Part shown: in pieces, positions 1 to 24,493 of the stretch
How the letters are laid out: each line of letters opens with the position of its first letter
Numbering within the stretch: the stretch's first letter is position 1
Origin: Gammaproteobacteria bacterium
Lineage (GTDB): Bacteria; Pseudomonadota; Gammaproteobacteria; CAIRSR01
Assembly: GCA_963575715.1 (NCBI GenBank)
Contig: CAUYTW010000055.1
Location: 1 to 41,664 of the forward strand
Length of the DNA stretch: 41,664 nt
Reading direction: 5' to 3'
Made by a program: the position numbers and the translations under genes
Notes under the pieces: model-generated
Seen by the model: the letters and a program-made list of their open reading frames with translations, nothing else
What the model was told of the DNA's origin: nothing
Databases searched by the model: none

Positions 1-33
1 GGCTGACAGCCGGGAAAGACCGGCGTTTTTACC

Positions 34-53
34 GGACGGTTGTAAAACCGTCC
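34..53. other. Perfect 8-bp hairpin upstream of the receiver gene
   Basis: GGACGGTT and AACCGTCC form a perfect 8-bp stem around a GTAA tetraloop, followed by a C/T-rich run rather than a T-tract. It could be the end of an upstream transcript, a leader hairpin or part of the adjacent IS200/IS605-like end at 63-94. The sequence does not decide between these. Confidence 0.35.
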
Positions 54-62
54 CCCTTTCCT

Positions 63-94
63 CCCCGCCCTAAAGGGCGCGGTTTCTCGGGGAC
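63..94 (-). repeat. Solo IS200/IS605-like end hairpin (E1)
   Basis: CGCCC-TAAA-GGGCG forms a short stem, followed by GCGGTTTCTCGGGGAC. Read on the minus strand this becomes GAGAAACC plus a hairpin with a CCCTTTAGGG core, which is the look of IS200/IS605 (TnpB-type) right ends. No transposase or TnpB gene lies next to it. The element ends about 5 nt before the ATG at 99, so its GGGGA also serves as the likely ribosome binding site of the receiver gene. Similar hairpins occur at 12059, 29119, 30017 and 34257. Confidence 0.45.
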
Positions 95-98
95 ATTG

Positions 99-476
99 AT
101 GAAAAAAATTCTGATTGTCGACGACCAGCCCATCATCCGTAAGATGGTGCGCATGGTTCTCAAAAATTATTTCGCTCTTGATGAGGCCGAAAATGGTGAC
201 AGCGCGCTGGAACAGATTCTGGTTGAGCGCCCCGATGGCATGGTGCTGGATGTCATGATGCCCGGCAACCTCAACGGTTTTCAGCTTTGCGAGCGCATCA
301 AGCGCGACCCTGCGCTAGCGAGTATCCATGTTGTGCTGGTCACTGCCTGTGCGCAGGTGGCTGATCAGGAACTCGGTCGTGCGATTGGTGCCGATGCCTA
401 TTTTATCAAGCCCTTCAGCCCGCTCGCCTTGGTTCGTCATCTCACCGAGGCGTTGAACGGGGGGCCACAAATATGA
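99..476 (+). CDS. Single-domain (CheY-like) response regulator
   Basis: This is a stand-alone receiver domain of 125 residues with no output domain. The acidic pair Asp8-Asp9, the phospho-acceptor Asp51 (in VLDVMMP), Thr82 and Lys104 (in IKPFSP) are all present, so it should accept phosphate from a histidine kinase. I start it at ATG 99, with GGGGA at 89-93 as ribosome binding site; an in-frame TTG at 96 lies directly before. Its stop overlaps the next gene by 4 nt (ATGA at 473-476), so the two are translationally coupled. The histidine kinase at 1890-3956 is the obvious partner. The output is probably protein-protein contact, since there is no DNA-binding domain. Confidence 0.9.
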   Translation: MKKILIVDDQPIIRKMVRMVLKNYFALDEAENGDSALEQILVERPDGMVLDVMMPGNLNGFQLCERIKRDPALASIHVVLVTACAQVADQELGRAIGADAYFIKPFSPLALVRHLTEALNGGPQI

Positions 477-943
477 ACACGAACGACGCACCCCTGGCCA
501 CATTTACGGCCGGGTGGTGGCATAGCCCTTGGGGCATGGCAACCGTTGGCATGGATGGCAACGTCCACGCGGTCAATCCGGCCTTTGAGCGTTGTACTGG
601 TCTGGCGGGCCAAACGGTGCTCGCAATGAGCGAGGCCACGCTGAGTACCTGGTTGAATGCGCACGGATGTGAACACCGACGGGTTGATATACTCAACAGC
701 GAGCCACGCGCTATTTATTATCTCCATGATAATACGGAGGGAAAGACCAACGTGCGGCGCTTGTCGTATGTCGCCGAATTACTGCGCGAGCCGCTTGCCA
801 GTATTTATGGGTTTGCCGAATTACTGCTGACACAGAATTATGACGAAGAAACCCGGCAAGATTTAACCGCCACCTTGCTCGGCGAAATCGAAGCAATGTC
901 CAATATAATCAATGAGCAGCTCGATGTCACCCGTACCATCTAA
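473..943 (+). CDS. PAS protein with degenerate histidine-kinase dimerisation domain
   Basis: The protein has 156 residues. Residues ~15-90 look like a PAS fold (GMATVGMDGNVHAVNPAFER). Residues ~95-156 resemble a kinase DHp/HisKA hairpin: EPLASIYGFAELLL closely matches TPMASIYGFTEVLL of the kinase at 1890-3956. The H-box histidine is replaced: HELRTP of the neighbour reads ELLREP here, with Glu in the His position. No HATPase domain follows; the protein ends after the second DHp helix. It cannot be an ordinary autokinase. It could bind the kinase or the receiver as a dimerisation adaptor, or be a shortened duplicate of the kinase. It overlaps the receiver gene by 4 nt and is followed by the solute-binding protein. 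Confidence 0.75.
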   Translation: MNTNDAPLATFTAGWWHSPWGMATVGMDGNVHAVNPAFERCTGLAGQTVLAMSEATLSTWLNAHGCEHRRVDILNSEPRAIYYLHDNTEGKTNVRRLSYVAELLREPLASIYGFAELLLTQNYDEETRQDLTATLLGEIEAMSNIINEQLDVTRTI

Positions 944-995
944 AGATATTATTTTGTAAACACCATTGACCTTTACCAAAACTGGAGAACAAACA

Positions 996-1886
996 ATGTC
1001 CACTCAATTCCGTTTGCATTGTGTATTCCTGGCGTGTCTGGCTTGTCTGAGTTTAACGGCGGTTAACGCTGATGATCTCAAGGATATCCAGGCGCGGGGC
1101 GAAATCCGTCATATTGGAATTCGCTACGCTAATTTTGTTACTGGAGCCGGAGATGGATTGGATGTCGAATTAGTCCAGGGTTTCGCTCGTCAACTCGGCG
1201 TACGTTACACACTGGTTTATTCTGATTTCTATAATGTCATTCGCGATTTATTGGGTCAGGAGGTCATGCGTCAAGGTAACGATGTCACATTGACCGGAAA
1301 ACATCCAATTCGGGGCGACATGATTGCTACTGGTTTCACGAAATTGCGCTGGCGTGAAAAAATACTGATCTATTCTGATCCCACCTTTCCCTCGCAGGTG
1401 CTGTTAGTCGCTCGCTCCGAATCGGAACAAAAACCAATTCAAGGCAGTGACAATTTGCTCCAAGATATCGCAGAAACGAAAAGTCTCATTGGTCATAGAA
1501 GTCTACTGGTTATGGAAAGAACTTGCGTCGACCCCGCTAATTATGGTCTGAAAGCCATGGGGATTGATCTCAAGGCGTATACGAAAAGCACCAATCTGAA
1601 CGAAATGGTGCCCGCCTTATTAAATAAGGAGGCGGAACTCACCCTGCTCGACGTGCCCGACGCCGTGCTCGATCTCCAAAAATGGGCCGGTCGCATTAAA
1701 GTGCTCGGGCCGATTTCCGAAGAACAAACTTTAGCGGCGGCCTTTCCGAAATCAGCTACAGCGCTGCGTGATGCCTTTAATGATTATCTGCGCAAGGTTC
1801 GTGCGGATGGTACTTATGATCGACTTGTACGGAAATATTATCCCGGCATCCAACAATATTTTCCGAATTTTTTTGCCAAAAAATAA
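996..1886 (+). CDS. Periplasmic solute-binding protein (SBP_bac_3-like)
   Basis: This is a 296-residue exported protein. I chose ATG 996 because GGAG at 983-986 is well placed and the product then begins with a normal signal peptide ending near AVNA; an upstream TTG at 966 only adds a polar tail. The mature part has the pattern of family 3 amino-acid-type binding proteins: an early GEIRHIGIRY strand, GLDVELVQGFARQLGV, and a C-terminal LRDAFNDYLRKVRADGTYDRL helix region. No ABC transporter permease or ATPase is nearby. The stop lies 3 nt before the kinase start, so it is more likely the ligand-sensing partner of the kinase than part of an importer. The ligand cannot be told. Confidence 0.8.
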   Translation: MSTQFRLHCVFLACLACLSLTAVNADDLKDIQARGEIRHIGIRYANFVTGAGDGLDVELVQGFARQLGVRYTLVYSDFYNVIRDLLGQEVMRQGNDVTLTGKHPIRGDMIATGFTKLRWREKILIYSDPTFPSQVLLVARSESEQKPIQGSDNLLQDIAETKSLIGHRSLLVMERTCVDPANYGLKAMGIDLKAYTKSTNLNEMVPALLNKEAELTLLDVPDAVLDLQKWAGRIKVLGPISEEQTLAAAFPKSATALRDAFNDYLRKVRADGTYDRLVRKYYPGIQQYFPNFFAKK

Positions 1887-1889
1887 CGA

Positions 1890-3956
1890 ATGCTGATACA
1901 CCTGCCTGCGCCGCTACGCCGTATTTCGCCAAGATGGCCTTTGGTGATGGCCGTGGCCTTTGGTTTATATTCGGCTGCGTTACTCACCTATTCCATTAGT
2001 GCGTGGCGGCAGATTAAGGAGGATGCCAATAATTTTCTCGTCGCAGATAGCAAACGGCGTGCTGTAACGTTGGGTGATTTGGCGCTGGAATTGCGTGACA
2101 ACGCGTTGGGCTATACCAATCTCCCCGAGATGTATACCTATCTTACAAACCGTGATTTGGGTATGTCGCCACGTTATGGATTGAATTATTCAATCCAAAT
2201 GATCAAGGAACGTTTCACCAGTCGTGCGGTACAGGATGCTCAACGCTGGGGTACGAATCCACCCCGGATTATTTATTTCCTAGAAACCGGTGCGCCGCTT
2301 GTCGATACGGGTCCGCCGGATGCACCATTTGATTTTGTCGCCTCTTTGGACGAACAAGTCAAATTACTGATCGATCCCGCGCATGGCTGGGTGCTGGCCG
2401 TGGCGCAGGTTGATTTTAAGGAACGACGGGAAGGACGGGTGGTCGTAGCCACACCTATTGAAGTGTTGTATCGCAACCTACTGTTGCGCTCGGAGTCTGC
2501 TACGGGCTACCGCGAATTGTTGCTGACGAACGATAGTACGGTACTGCCGACCCGCGTTCCCAATACCATGCAATCAGAATGGCTTACCCAACTGCTCCCA
2601 AACAGCGTCACACCTGTGGATGCAGAGGGCGAATTATTCGCGATTATGACGCCAGTCCCGGGCCTTGCGCTGCGCCTGATGACCCTGGTACCACACGAAC
2701 GGGCTTATGGGCACATTGTTTCGGCGAGCGTGTTGTGGGTTGCCGCCGTGGTGCCGTTACTGATGCTGTTCGTGGCCTTCCGGCTGGATCGCCTACGCAT
2801 GCAGACAGAGCGTTTGCAGGTGGCGATGGCCGCTTCCGAACGGGAACGACTACGGGCCGAGATTCGCAATTACGAGCTGGCGGAGGAAATCCAACGCCGC
2901 GAGACGTTGGAAGCGCATCTCAAAGAACGTACCGAACAACTCGAGGCCATTTTTACGTTAAGTTCCGATGGTTTCGTAACCTTTGGGCCAACTCATCGCG
3001 CCAGCTACATTAGTCCAGGGTTTTGGAAAATTACCGGATTGGCAGACGCGATTAGCGTTGGACTGACGTTTGACGATTTCATAGAACGGATTGCCGCGCA
3101 CTGTGCCACCGGCAGCCTGGAGCCTCTCCGGGGAGGGCACGGATCGGGGCAGACCCGCATTGAACTGCGTCAACCCGGGAGTCCGGTGCTGACGGTTGCA
3201 GTCCGCTTCGGCGCGGGTGATGTGGTCGCTGAGATTTTGTATTTCCGCGACATCACTCACGAAACCGCAGTAGAACGAATCAAAAACGAATTTCTCGCCA
3301 TGGCAGCCCACGAACTGCGCACCCCAATGGCCAGCATCTATGGTTTTACGGAAGTCTTGTTAAGCCAGGATCTCTCTGCGGAAATACGGGAATTACTTGA
3401 AATCATTTTTCATAGTTCCGAATTGGTCATCACCATCATCAACGAATTGCTCGATTTGGCCCGCATTGAGGCGCGACAGGGCAAAGATTTTCATCTAGAG
3501 CGTATCGATGCCCGCGCCCTGGTGGACGAAATCGTCATCCATTTCAAGGTACCAGCAGGCAGCACTTCGCCGCTTAAATCTGTGATGGAGCTTGATCATT
3601 ATTGGATCCGTGCGGACCACAAAAAGTTGATCCAAGCGCTTGGCAACGTGCTCTCTAACGCCTACAAGTATTCGCCGCATGGCGGCGCAGTGACCATTGA
3701 ACTGCTCGCGACTCCGCCCCGGGTTGGTATCTGTATCACCGATCAAGGCATCGGGATGACGCCACAACAACTTAACAGGATCTATGAACGTTTTTATCGC
3801 GCCGATACATCAGGAAAAATTCCTGGTGCCGGGTTGGGAATGAGTATCGTCAAAGAAATCATCGAACTCCATGGTGGGGTGATAGAAATTGTCAGCGAGT
3901 TGGGTATTGGTACCCGTGTAACATTGTGGCTACCCATGGCCAACACTGAAGTCTAA
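1890..3956 (+). CDS. Membrane sensor histidine kinase with PAS domain
   Basis: The protein has 688 residues. A transmembrane segment at ~16-36 and a second at ~280-298 enclose a periplasmic sensor region of about 240 residues without a recognisable name. A coiled coil (~300-345), a PAS domain (~346-455), a HisKA domain with phospho-acceptor His474 (HELRTP), and a HATPase_c domain follow. The ATPase has an N box around 585 (NVLSNAYKYSP), a G1 box near 617 (DQGIGM) and a G2 box near 646 (GAGLGMSIV). All catalytic motifs are intact. It lies 3 nt after the solute-binding protein, which may dock on the periplasmic domain. The likely target is the receiver at 99-476, three genes upstream. Confidence 0.9.
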   Translation: MLIHLPAPLRRISPRWPLVMAVAFGLYSAALLTYSISAWRQIKEDANNFLVADSKRRAVTLGDLALELRDNALGYTNLPEMYTYLTNRDLGMSPRYGLNYSIQMIKERFTSRAVQDAQRWGTNPPRIIYFLETGAPLVDTGPPDAPFDFVASLDEQVKLLIDPAHGWVLAVAQVDFKERREGRVVVATPIEVLYRNLLLRSESATGYRELLLTNDSTVLPTRVPNTMQSEWLTQLLPNSVTPVDAEGELFAIMTPVPGLALRLMTLVPHERAYGHIVSASVLWVAAVVPLLMLFVAFRLDRLRMQTERLQVAMAASERERLRAEIRNYELAEEIQRRETLEAHLKERTEQLEAIFTLSSDGFVTFGPTHRASYISPGFWKITGLADAISVGLTFDDFIERIAAHCATGSLEPLRGGHGSGQTRIELRQPGSPVLTVAVRFGAGDVVAEILYFRDITHETAVERIKNEFLAMAAHELRTPMASIYGFTEVLLSQDLSAEIRELLEIIFHSSELVITIINELLDLARIEARQGKDFHLERIDARALVDEIVIHFKVPAGSTSPLKSVMELDHYWIRADHKKLIQALGNVLSNAYKYSPHGGAVTIELLATPPRVGICITDQGIGMTPQQLNRIYERFYRADTSGKIPGAGLGMSIVKEIIELHGGVIEIVSELGIGTRVTLWLPMANTEV

Positions 3957-3982: not shown

Positions 3983-4345
3983 TCATCTCCAGGGCAATCG
4001 CGCTATGTTGCTTCGGCTACCACGTAGGGTTTTGCCGTCCAGGCAGATCTGTTCGTCCACCATGCGCGGCACGGCCGTTTGTGTCCACGGCAGGAACACC
4101 TCCGCGAAGGCACCGGGGGCCAAACGCCCGATGACGTCACTGAGTGTGTCGTGCGAAGGGATGTCGCTGGGCAGCAACAGGAATTGTCGGAACCATTCCT
4201 CTTTTTCGCGGGCGAAGGTTTCCATTCCCACCCAGCCCTCAATTCCGCTCAATACTGCACAAAAAACGATTATCAGGATGTCTTGGCGTAGGTGTAGTTT
4301 GTTTTTGGTTTCCCGTCGAGGATCGGCGAGTGCGGTAAACTAGGG
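3983..4345 (-). pseudogene. Remnant of ISAs1-family transposase (N-terminal part)
   Basis: The minus strand reads DPRRETKNKLHL, LIIVFCAVLSGIEGW, ETFAREKEEW, IPSHDTLSDV and CLDGKTLRGS. This is the order seen in the N-terminal third of ISAs1/H-repeat transposases, through the first DDE aspartate region (DGKT). After LRGS the reading frame loses similarity and stops at 3983; towards the 5' end an in-frame TAG precedes the fragment. Two thirds of the protein and both terminal inverted repeats are missing, so this is an old, inactive relic between the kinase and the TPR gene. Confidence 0.7.
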
Positions 4346-6120: not shown

Positions 6121-7836
6121 ATGAGATCTCTTAGCGAAAATAAAATAGCGATGGTTTTGGTTGCAATGGTAATTATATTTTCAACCTCATGGGCGGGAAC
6201 CATTCCAGACGCAGGAACAATATTGCGAGAAATCGAACGATCCACCGGAAAGCAAGAAATGGCACCGGCACCATTAACCATTATTGATCATCCACCTGCC
6301 AGTGCGCCTTTGCCAGAAAAAGCGGGAGAAACCGTATTGGTAATTTCGTTCCGTATCAAGGCGACTCTTTTTTCGGAAGATACATTGCGTTCGTTACTAA
6401 AGGATTATGTTGGTCGAGCACTAACCCTTGCTGAATTACAGGAAGCTGCGCGTAAAATCGGTGACTATTATACTCAACACGATTATTTGGCCCATGCCTA
6501 TCTTCCTCCTCAAACGGTACACGATGGCGTGGTCGAGATAGTGGTAGTCGAAAGTCGTTTGAGTCAAGTGAAAATTGATCCTTCAAGTACCACGCGCCTG
6601 AATTACTCGCTCGCCACTGGATTGATCCAATTCCGTGCCGAGGTTGGTCAATTGCTACACCCATCTAAATTGAGTGAATCTATGGAGATTTTTAATGAGA
6701 TTCCTGGTGTGCGGGCTACGAGTACTCTGGCGCCAGGTCTTGTTGAAAGTGAAAGCGTTGCAATTTTGAAAATTGAGGATGGGCCATTGCTTGGTGGCAT
6801 GTTTACTCTGGATAAGGGAGGTTCTCACACTACTGGCGCAAAACGAGCTTTGCTGACCACGGCGATAAATGATTATTTTGGTCAAGGAGATCAGTTTTCG
6901 GTTGTGGGGCTAAAATCCTCGGGCAGTTCTTACATACGTCTGGGCGCAACAATGCCGGCGGGCATTTCTGGTCTGATGCTCGGAACTAATGGATCGGTAC
7001 TGGAATATAAAGTCGGAGGTGCCTTAACACCGCTTGACTTACATGGTCATGCCTGGACCATGGGTGTGAATGCTGGTTATCCGATTAAACGTAGTTCCAA
7101 TTTTTCCCTCACCGCAAATGCAACTTTCGATCACAAGCGGATGGTTGATTTTGGAAATGAAGTGATGCTTGGCGATAAACAAATTGAAGTCTTTACTTTT
7201 GGTTTATCGGCAATGATTAAGGACGGATGGCTGGGTGACGCAACCAATCGTCTGGGAATCACGTTCAACGCGGGACGTCTAGACCTTTCCAGGCAAAAGG
7301 AAAAATTCAAGGCTGACCAATCCACCGCGCGGACTAATGGTGTTTTCACAAAGTTGGCTTTCACCGCAGCGCGTGAGCAGCTTTTATGGGAAAAAATAAT
7401 CCTGGTAGATAATTTTCGTGCTCAGGTGGCGCGTCCCAACTTGGATGGTTCCGAACAATTTTCCTTGGGAGGTCAGGATGGAATTCGTGCTTATCCGGTC
7501 AGCGAAGCCGCCGGAGATGCTGGTTGGATTAATTCACTAGAATTGCGTTGGCAAAAGATGGATCAGCTTCAGTTATTTGGATTTTACGATATCGGTAGAA
7601 TTCACCAACATAATCATCTTTGGGATGGATGGCAGTCCGTTCCTGGTCAACCCAATGGTTATCTGCTTCATGGAACTGGGATAGGAATGATGTGGTCGCC
7701 ATTTTCTTATTTACAAGTTAAAGCAACGCTGGCGCGCACAATTGACGATAATCCAGGCCATGATGTTGCTGGCAATGACAGCGATGGCACTCAAGATAAA
7801 ATGCGGAGCTGGATTCAGGCTGTGATCAATTTTTAA
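6121..7836 (+). CDS. TpsB-type two-partner secretion outer-membrane protein (ShlB/FhaC/HecB family)
   Basis: The protein has 571 residues, the usual size. A signal peptide (~1-26) is followed by a polypeptide-transport-associated region: a POTRA domain at ~70-150 (FRIKATLFSEDTLRSLLKDY, AARKIGDYYTQHDYLAHAYL) and a second, ShlB-type region to ~220. The rest is a 16-strand-type beta-barrel; FSLGGQDGIRAYP corresponds to the conserved region near strands 11-12, and the chain ends in an aromatic residue (VINF), as outer-membrane proteins do. It should export a TpsA protein with an N-terminal haemagglutinin-activity domain. No TpsA gene adjoins it; the only one in the window is at 22082-24493 on the other strand. 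Confidence 0.88.
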   Translation: MRSLSENKIAMVLVAMVIIFSTSWAGTIPDAGTILREIERSTGKQEMAPAPLTIIDHPPASAPLPEKAGETVLVISFRIKATLFSEDTLRSLLKDYVGRALTLAELQEAARKIGDYYTQHDYLAHAYLPPQTVHDGVVEIVVVESRLSQVKIDPSSTTRLNYSLATGLIQFRAEVGQLLHPSKLSESMEIFNEIPGVRATSTLAPGLVESESVAILKIEDGPLLGGMFTLDKGGSHTTGAKRALLTTAINDYFGQGDQFSVVGLKSSGSSYIRLGATMPAGISGLMLGTNGSVLEYKVGGALTPLDLHGHAWTMGVNAGYPIKRSSNFSLTANATFDHKRMVDFGNEVMLGDKQIEVFTFGLSAMIKDGWLGDATNRLGITFNAGRLDLSRQKEKFKADQSTARTNGVFTKLAFTAAREQLLWEKIILVDNFRAQVARPNLDGSEQFSLGGQDGIRAYPVSEAAGDAGWINSLELRWQKMDQLQLFGFYDIGRIHQHNHLWDGWQSVPGQPNGYLLHGTGIGMMWSPFSYLQVKATLARTIDDNPGHDVAGNDSDGTQDKMRSWIQAVINF

Positions 7837-22081: not shown

Positions 22082-24493
22082 TTACGGAATCCCTACCATT
22101 ACACTATCCAATACAGGCGCAGGAAGTCCGCCCCGTCCGTTAATTCTGAGGTTAGCGCGTTTTTTATGTTCGATGCAGGGAGTAATGATAGGATTGATGT
22201 CGAAATGATGTTCCATCGTAACTGCTGTCAATCCCGCAGCAGTGCTGGTATCGGGTGAAGTGAGCATAATCTTCCCACTGACTCCATCTGGAGCAGCAGC
22301 CTGAATTACATTTTTTGCTGAATCAGGTATAAAGATTTCACGCGTTTTTGCACCAACGGCTACCAATCCAGCATTGGTGATAACACCAGATTCATCAATT
22401 ATAATGTTGCCACCCTTGGCGCTAGTTGCTTCTGTATTAGCTTGAATAAAACCAGTATCCATTACAAGATATTTGCCATTAATCATAATGTCTCCACCAT
22501 TACCCCTCGTATCCACCGAGGTAATAATTCGACCATTATTCATCATTAATATTGGCACAGTAATATGAATTAGTCCACCATTTCCAGATTTCGCTGAGGT
22601 TTCAACTACTCCACCAGTAAGAAAAAGTTTTTTTCCAACGGTTAAATAGATGGCTCCCGCATCATTAGTTCCATAGTTCGCGCTAGAAATTCCTCCAATT
22701 CCAAAATTGTTGTTAGAGATTGCATCATTCCATAATTGGGGAGTTCCGATCACATGGGCATCGTGCGTCACGCTTACATTGATCTCACCCGCGTTTCCAG
22801 TAGAGCCAAAAAAATTTCTGGACGCGATGCCAGTATCCATGTTTGTAGTACCTTGATCAATGATTAAACTTCCTGTTTTTATATGTACGGTTCCCGCGTT
22901 CATTGAATTACCAGTACTACTGGATACACCTCCACCATTTAACAGCCGTATTTCATTTTTGACATCAATTTCAACATTCCCCGCCTTTCCCGTGGAACCA
23001 TTATTGGCTTGTGATCCAATGCCCGTTCCCCATTCGGTAATTCCATTACCATTAATAACTAGGCTTCCTGTTTTAACATTAATGGCACCAGCATTTCCTG
23101 CGCTAAAGGTACTACTTGATACTACGCCTTCATTCAATACCGCCATTTCGTTGTTAATGCTGATTGAAATCGTTCCCGCATTGCCCGTAGAAAAAGAGTC
23201 AGAAGCAATTCCAGTTCCCCAATGATTGACTCCTTTTCCGTCAATAGTTAAAATTTTTGCTTGTACACTAATCATTCCTGCTTCGCCCGTACCACGGGCA
23301 TTACTTGATATGCCACCTCCATTTAAAATTTGTATTTTCTGATTGATATTTATTTCGATAGTACCTGCTGTTCCTGTTGAAAAAGAATCAGAAGCAATTC
23401 CTGGTCCTGTTCCCAGTCCCAATTTAGAACCATTACCATCAATGGTTAAATTCGCGGCGTTGATAGTAATTGCTCCAGCATTACCTCTTCCATGAGTAGT
23501 AGTAGCTATTCTCAGATCAGGACTTAAAATTTTCATATTGCCATTTGTGTTAATCACTAAATCAGGGCCTTTTCCTTCTTTTTGTGCATCGTTTTCAATG
23601 CTCGCATTATGAAACAGCAACGTATCGGCATCAATACGAAATTTTCCCATAGCATCCTTGGTACCCGTATTATGGTCATAAAGATACGTGCGTTCGCTAA
23701 TACTAAGCGCGCCGCCGCTGATAAAAAAATTCCCACCGCCATTTCCACTCACATCCAATTTTCCACCATTAATAGTTACTACACCATTACCCGCGAATAA
23801 ATTACCGTCAATCGGTAACGCGCCAGATATTGTTCCTTGTCCATGGATCCGTAAACTTCCTCCCGGAGCTATTAACACCGCCCTATCCACGATTACTGAT
23901 TCTGCTGCGAACGTGAGTGGGTACCCGTCATGAAGAGTCAATTGGCTATTATTTATTTGAATGGAGCCTGTCGATCCCAAGAACCCAAACGCCTCCGGGG
24001 GAGCTGAGGTGAAACTACTGCCTGCCGGCATTGTTGCACGGTAACGGGTACCGTCGGTAAAGCGTAACTCCTGGGCGGTGCCAACATGAAATGCCGCTGG
24101 CACATCCAATGCAGCGTGTTCTCCGAAAATAATACCCGCTGGATTTACGAAGAAAAAATTGGCATTACCAATTTTAGAACGGATGGTACCATCAATCCTA
24201 GACGCCTCTCCACCTGTAACGCGGCTAATGACATTTTGTAGGGAATTAGATCCAGTAAATTCGGCGATATCGCCTTTGCTTAGGTTAAATACACTAAAAC
24301 TGTGGAACAAATTATTTCCAACAATGGTGCCAATAGTTTGTGGGATGATGTAATTAGGACCACTTAATGAAGTAGCAATACCAATAGTACCGTCGGTGAC
24401 AATCATTCCCGCACGTATATCGGACAGGTTAACAAGAATAAGACTACCAAGACTAAACGTGATTAAGCTTTTTAAAAAATAGCTAATTTTCAT
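22082..24493 (-). CDS. TpsA-type filamentous haemagglutinin-like exoprotein
   Basis: The protein has 803 residues. A signal peptide (~1-29) precedes the haemagglutinin-activity/TPS domain (~30-270): GTIGIATSLSGPNYIIPQ, LFHSFSVFNLSKGDIAEFTG, NVISRVTGGEASRIDGTI and ANFFFVNPAGIIFGEHAALD are classic. Residues ~330-600 hold at least four repeats of about 55-60 residues built on IDGNG...GTGIASDSFSTG and LNGGGVSSST, as expected of a right-handed beta-helix. The end GRGGLPAPVLDS is the C-terminal signature seen in many such exoproteins. It should be secreted by a TpsB porin; the only one in the window is at 6121. The glycosyltransferase gene ends 17 nt upstream, so they are probably co-transcribed. 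Confidence 0.88.
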   Translation of the reverse strand: MKISYFLKSLITFSLGSLILVNLSDIRAGMIVTDGTIGIATSLSGPNYIIPQTIGTIVGNNLFHSFSVFNLSKGDIAEFTGSNSLQNVISRVTGGEASRIDGTIRSKIGNANFFFVNPAGIIFGEHAALDVPAAFHVGTAQELRFTDGTRYRATMPAGSSFTSAPPEAFGFLGSTGSIQINNSQLTLHDGYPLTFAAESVIVDRAVLIAPGGSLRIHGQGTISGALPIDGNLFAGNGVVTINGGKLDVSGNGGGNFFISGGALSISERTYLYDHNTGTKDAMGKFRIDADTLLFHNASIENDAQKEGKGPDLVINTNGNMKILSPDLRIATTTHGRGNAGAITINAANLTIDGNGSKLGLGTGPGIASDSFSTGTAGTIEININQKIQILNGGGISSNARGTGEAGMISVQAKILTIDGKGVNHWGTGIASDSFSTGNAGTISISINNEMAVLNEGVVSSSTFSAGNAGAINVKTGSLVINGNGITEWGTGIGSQANNGSTGKAGNVEIDVKNEIRLLNGGGVSSSTGNSMNAGTVHIKTGSLIIDQGTTNMDTGIASRNFFGSTGNAGEINVSVTHDAHVIGTPQLWNDAISNNNFGIGGISSANYGTNDAGAIYLTVGKKLFLTGGVVETSAKSGNGGLIHITVPILMMNNGRIITSVDTRGNGGDIMINGKYLVMDTGFIQANTEATSAKGGNIIIDESGVITNAGLVAVGAKTREIFIPDSAKNVIQAAAPDGVSGKIMLTSPDTSTAAGLTAVTMEHHFDINPIITPCIEHKKRANLRINGRGGLPAPVLDSVMVGIP

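Follow-up and report, generated by a model that had tools for sequence, protein, structure and literature searches.

Known systems and position of the protein

In Spo0B/ChpT-type phosphotransferases, a phosphorylatable histidine is carried on a helical hairpin. DivK, the receiver partner of the Caulobacter protein DivL, has no output domain. DivL itself has a Tyr at the acceptor site; it acts neither as a kinase nor as a phosphatase and binds DivK~P; its PAS domains determine phospho-selectivity, and the exchange R553A, at the position equivalent to the Arg three residues after the acceptor (+3), lowers DivK~P binding (PMC4211667, available part of the text). Non-enzymatic histidine kinase-like proteins with a HisKA domain and no HATPase domain have been described in archaea; the stand-alone ones keep the His, a phosphatase role has been suggested for HisKA domains of this kind, and REC-PAS/GAF-HisKA proteins lacking HATPase, e.g. 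AF_1472, had not been studied experimentally as of that source (PMC5847659, excerpted text). Two further comparisons are LvrB, a REC-controlled histidine kinase that is active, has a CA domain and carries its REC domain ahead of the DHp domain (PMC13269768, excerpted text), and the plant pseudo-HPt AHP6, a phosphotransfer module that has lost its His and inhibits its pathway (PMC3572949, excerpted text).

The protein considered here, a pseudo-DHp, is encoded at positions 473..943 (+) of the window, i.e. of the whole 41,664-nucleotide stretch analysed, which belongs to a Gammaproteobacteria bacterium (GTDB lineage CAIRSR01; assembly GCA_963575715.1). Its hairpin differs from that of Spo0B/ChpT-type phosphotransferases by a Glu in the column of the phosphorylatable His. 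It resembles DivL in combining (i) a HisKA-type DHp domain without acceptor His, (ii) a preceding PAS region, (iii) a single-domain receiver partner, here a presumed one, and (iv) an Arg at +3. Unlike DivL, a large multi-PAS protein with Tyr at the acceptor site and a CA domain, it is not a DivL orthologue and has Glu at the acceptor site, a second Glu at +4, a single reduced PAS region, no CA domain and a receiver gene that is coupled or fused to its own. It shares with the archaeal proteins the association of a sensor region with HisKA without HATPase, and the existence of REC-fused versions, although the PAS region is weak here and absent from one relative, and the His conserved in the stand-alone archaeal proteins (PMC5847659, excerpted text) is always Glu here, in 8/8 family members. 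The order of domains in the REC-fused member is that of LvrB, and LvrB chains are among the top Foldseek matches of the hairpin, none of which reaches E<=0.001; like AHP6, the protein is a phosphotransfer-type module missing its His, but it is a HisKA and not an Hpt domain in Pfam, whereas AHP6 is an HPt protein of a plant phosphorelay. Since HATPase-less HisKA proteins have been described in archaea (PMC5847659, excerpted text), the kind is already known; judged by its sequences, the version that combines an invariant Glu/Glu pair with a single type of receiver is new as a variant, and no report of such a family was found among the papers listed by searches of open-licence PMC for DHp/HisKA proteins without His or HATPase.

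Gene and protein architecture

The open reading frame opens with an ATG and encodes 156 aa. It comprises a reduced PAS-like region (residues ~17-86; 521..730, +) and a DHp helical hairpin (residues 97-154; 761..934, +), which matches Pfam HisKA with an E-value of 2.7e-8 and passes the curated cut-off. At residues 17-55, PAS_4 reaches 18.4 bits where its cut-off is 23.1, which makes the PAS assignment weak when taken alone; PAS_4 is matched at E<=0.1 by 6/7 family members. According to BLASTP, this PAS region is without a stretch that is found in the PAS of the kinase encoded in the same operon. No HATPase domain was found in the protein by Pfam, nor in a six-frame scan of the 2 kb downstream, which detected both control kinases at E<=1e-59; a frameshifted kinase with its HATPase further along is ruled out over these 2 kb. 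Of the features of a HisKA histidine kinase, the protein has the hairpin and lacks the acceptor His and the HATPase domain, as the first-pass annotation had proposed. No dedicated model exists in NCBIfam, where kinase models were matched far under their cut-offs and the sensory_box model just under its own.

The AlphaFold model of the full protein, built from a 3-row alignment, has a mean pLDDT of 53.5 (~53 or less in the PAS part), and the hairpin alone gives a confident two-helix model with a mean pLDDT of 92.2. The top Foldseek rows of this hairpin model are mostly histidine kinases; as none has E<=0.001, these matches back no more than a kinase-like hairpin. Mean identity over 15 pairs of family members is 39% in the PAS region and 67% in the DHp hairpin. 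The hairpin is thus the constrained part and the core of the protein, because the PAS region is less conserved and one member, L017, is without it.

The phosphoryl-handling motif is altered at two positions. The H-box of the operon kinase aligns without gaps with that of the pseudo-DHp (HELRTP / ELLREP, BLASTP), which bears out the relationship already noticed between the two hairpins. In the ELLREP box (776..793, +), Glu102 stands at the His site, Arg105 (+3) is kept and Glu106 replaces the Thr at +4.

Relatives and conservation of the Glu/Glu pair

A first relative, L017, was found by a genome-contig search in an uncultured Sterolibacterium MAG. There, a receiver gene overlaps by 4 nt the following gene, whose 90-aa product is little more than the hairpin; the segment AELLREPLASIYGFAELLLTQNYDEETR of this product is identical in the window protein. 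Profile A1, built from these two sequences (window protein and L017), was run against 297 genomes of L017's family and gave six genomes at >=99 bits, namely G095 (L017's own genome), G172, G336, G111, G140 and G299, the next scoring <=69 bits. The seven-row profile A3 added one more member, G791, among 399 genomes of the order and no others among 5 genomes of the genus and 117 of G791's family; it matched 1/369 genomes of the class and 1/398 of the phylum, in both cases the window's own genome (G000). A single-protein search of 95 genomes (G000 and relatives) gave only partial kinase-type matches outside G000, a search of viral_contigs with the DHp domain gave no relative, and a plasmid collection gave only low-identity matches (29-44%, 3 records). 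Some genomes were sampled in more than one search draw, and the E-value cut-offs of the genome searches (1e-8 to 1e-20) could hide divergent members; the members found across these draws point to a genuine family that is thinly distributed. A simple truncation unique to the window genome is ruled out by L017 and the six further loci.

The acceptor His is replaced by Glu in 8/8 family members, and so is the Thr at +4. The invariant columns of the seven-row alignment are E102, R105, E106, P107, L108, A109 and 16 others, and the box of the eighth member (G791), AEALREP, agrees with the invariant E/R/E. Among 58 distinct DHp sequences, which cover the loci brought in by the searches of this study, the pair at the acceptor and +4 positions is (His,Thr) in 49, (Glu,Glu) in 8 and (His,Asn) in 1, with no intermediates; for this tally every match to an HMM made from profile A3 was aligned, and the kinases were not selected by motif. 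No HATPase domain follows the pseudo-DHp in any of the 8 loci, within ~2 kb or up to the nearer contig end. The earlier annotation had argued for a kept gene over mere decay, and had named homologues with a His and a HATPase domain as the finding that would speak against it; the opposite is seen.

In a tree of 57 rows (the 58 sequences minus one gappy row) and 54 columns, with the three catalytic columns removed and 24 open forks, the eight pseudo-DHp hairpins form one clade with a support of 98/98. This clade sits beside, and not inside, the kinase group that holds the operon kinase; a recent derivation from the operon kinase is ruled out by this separate position. Non-synonymous differences are rarer than synonymous ones (pN < pS) in 28/28 pairs, with means of 0.20 and 0.67, respectively; between the window protein and L017, pS is 0.81 and pN 0.14 over 56 codons. 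Sequence comparison shows that these proteins form a conserved family, which is a single clade and evolves under purifying selection. Given eight intact members in this one clade, pN < pS throughout and an invariant Glu pair, there is hardly any chance that the gene is a functionless, decaying remnant of a truncated kinase, for which its reduced and low-scoring PAS region might speak.

Receiver partner and docking face

Directly upstream of the pseudo-DHp gene, positions 99..476 (+) encode a 125-aa single-domain receiver (REC; Pfam Response_reg, 1e-21), the presumed docking partner. The TGA of the receiver gene (474-476) and the start codon at 473 share an ATGA, so that the predicted 4-nt overlap of the two genes is present. 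The same receiver type is found directly upstream of the pseudo-DHp in 8/8 loci, with a 4-nt overlap in five, gaps of 16 nt and 27 nt in two others and a fusion in one. Indeed, in G111 (locus L065), receiver and pseudo-DHp are fused in-frame into one 299-aa REC-PAS-DHp protein. The residues of receiver phosphorylation (D/E8 D9, D51, T/S and K) are kept in 8/8 sequences of an 8-way alignment.

Helix 1 of the pseudo-DHps retains R+3, P+5, A+7, S/T+8, I+9, G+11, F+12, E+14 and L+15, the Arg at +3 being invariant across the family; in this comparison the kinase rows were picked by a pattern that fixes H[ED]LRTP and some of the positions after it, so that these kinase columns are conserved by construction, and the pseudo-DHp side is unaffected. 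Six of the offsets (+7, +8, +11, +12, +14 and +15) are docking positions taken from the work of Capra et al. on partner choice by EnvZ (PMC2991266, available part of the text). At these six offsets, in a comparison of 45 H-boxes from 48 loci of the window genome (three loci being without an H-box), the operon kinase equals the window protein at five, and the next best sequence at three. The retention of docking residues is explained in part by shared descent with the sister kinase clade.

Operon and genomic neighbourhood

The pseudo-DHp gene is followed by a gene coding for a solute-binding protein of the SBP_bac_3 family (966..1886, +; PF00497, 6.7e-15; with the ATG at 996 as a possible true start) and by a gene coding for a sensor histidine kinase with an HELRTP box and a HATPase domain (1890..3956, +; HisKA 6.4e-19, HATPase_c 1.4e-27). 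The latter is a candidate phospho-donor for the receiver; its DHp domain is the best match of the pseudo-DHp in the window genome, with 42% identity. This arrangement, which the first-pass annotation proposed to look for in other genomes, recurs in G111/L065, where a solute-binding protein and a kinase directly follow the REC-PAS-DHp fusion. Pairs of this kind are also nearby in G299 and G791, where the solute-binding protein is of the phosphonate-binding family instead of the SBP_bac_3 family of the window.

In 7/7 relatives, the start of the receiver gene is overlapped by 4 nt by an upstream gene that we take to be of the HD-GYP type from its DG[SG]GYP motif. Pfam HD_5 is found in six of these seven genes, five of which also have an N-terminal REC domain and the sixth of which (L047) is cut off by its contig end; the seventh, in L017, is incomplete as well and shares 83% identity over 210 aa with the L047 gene. 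HDOD genes lie downstream in at least two loci (L047 and L063), and a third, in L066, is recognised only by its sequence similarity. A 108-121 aa protein without Pfam match is encoded just before the HDOD gene in L047 (1098-1424) and in L040 (1619-1984).

The start of the window coincides with the first base of its contig (C55), hence the gene before the receiver is out of view and the HD-GYP coupling is not seen here. The best REC-HD-GYP match of the window genome (L095, contig C334, 8353-9489) ends 131 bases before its contig end and matches at 65% the gene beside the G791 pseudo-DHp. Contig C334 may precede the window, in which case the operon may have this REC-HD-GYP gene as its unseen first member; no overlap joining C334 to the window was found.

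Several other elements were observed in the window. In brief, bases 1-98 correspond to the terminal part of a dispersed repeat rich in hairpins, with ~40 near-full copies in the genome, presumably resembling IS200/IS605-type ends; the conserved end of the repeat, ..GGGACATTGATG, provides the ATG of the receiver (window 1-101), and the same repeat ATG opens a reading frame in L133 and L138, perhaps in L132 and L134, and not in L135, L136 and L137. A short open frame (IEGWVGMETFAREKEEWFRQFLLLPSDIPSHDTLSDVIGRL...) at 3983-4252 (-), between the operon and the next gene, reads like what we take to be a fragment of an ISAs1-type DDE transposase. Further along, two genes ~14 kb apart presumably encode a ShlB/FhaC-type two-partner-secretion transporter (6121-7836) and a filamentous haemagglutinin-type adhesin (22082-24493, -). 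Rfam gave no match anywhere in the window.

Possible function

On balance, the protein would be a non-catalytic DHp docking partner dedicated to the receiver encoded just before it. As the phosphoryl-handling residues are lost, the docking face is kept and the receiver is always alongside, it is best read as a protein that would read or sequester the receiver, by analogy with Caulobacter DivL and DivK. The hairpin would dimerise like other HisKA domains, the dimer would bind the receiver on the usual DHp-receiver face, and the pseudo-DHp would neither donate a phosphoryl group to the receiver nor accept one; with no transfer either way, it would bind one phosphorylation state of the receiver, so as to read or sequester it. 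Bound and free receiver would then differ in their effect on a partner, for which the adjacent REC-HD-GYP protein or the sensor kinases are the likeliest candidates, and the PAS region would tune the dimer in those members that have one. Given the REC-HD-GYP neighbour, control of cyclic-di-GMP could be the first candidate output. The strict linkage and the natural fusion speak for an earlier, putative suggestion, in which the protein holds the receiver. Against such a role, shared ancestry with the sister kinase clade also accounts for the kept docking residues, members are rare (the window's own genome being its sole carrier among the class and phylum genomes), two acidic residues near the acidic pocket of the receiver could weaken binding, and the HD-GYP coupling is not seen in the window genome, where the contig ends.

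A more specific and quite tentative version is that of a so far undescribed 'anti-receiver' family of stand-alone HisKA dimers, in which the two invariant carboxylates, standing where the acceptor His and the phosphatase Thr would be, would enter the acidic Mg2+ pocket of the receiver, making binding dependent on its phosphorylation state; the HD-GYP/receiver/pseudo-DHp triad would then be a partner-switching circuit leading from two-component input to cyclic-di-GMP turnover.

Mixed dimers with the operon kinase, as suggested in the first-pass annotation, or with a related kinase are rather unlikely. Such half-active heterodimers between the pseudo-DHp and a kinase DHp would damp or retune the kinase, and would be consistent with the common HisKA subfamily, with the operon kinase being the best match in the genome and with the presence of a kinase in the operon of the window and in that of G111. 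Nothing specific was found in their favour: two of the seven other genomes, G172 and G140 (genome completeness not given), gave no subfamily kinase at E<=1e-8, 35 of the 41 genomes with subfamily matches are without a pseudo-DHp by score, and the linkage in 8/8 loci is to the receiver, not to the kinase.

There is less still to be said for a dimerisation scaffold that serves other proteins, e.g. of the REC-HD-GYP or HDOD type, the receiver being no more than a neighbour. The HD-GYP-type genes upstream in all seven relatives and the downstream HDOD genes would fit this improbable role, against which stand the kept docking-face residues and the natural fusion to the receiver.

A phosphatase or other catalyst, in which the Glu pair would orient a water molecule to dephosphorylate the receiver, is very improbable. 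Both Glu residues are invariant, as expected of catalytic residues, but Glu stands here at +4, where HisKA phosphatases have Thr or Asn, and an acidic side chain next to a phosphoryl group is unfavourable. Although a phosphatase role has already been proposed for HATPase-less HisKA domains (PMC5847659, excerpted text), the nearest precedent, DivL, has neither kinase nor phosphatase activity (PMC4211667, available part of the text).

Significance

DivL, one large protein, is the sole precedent found for a pseudo-kinase that reads a receiver, and the family described here would be a compact version, reduced almost to the hairpin alone. The fixed substitution pair, the fixed receiver partner and the natural fusion make for a clean and testable question, namely whether a DHp domain could act as a pure reader of phosphorylation state, and what role the acids at both catalytic positions could have. 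The family is also a caution that short genes of the 'HisKA without HATPase' kind are not all truncation debris, and it links a HATPase-less HisKA protein to a gene of the cyclic-di-GMP phosphodiesterase type.
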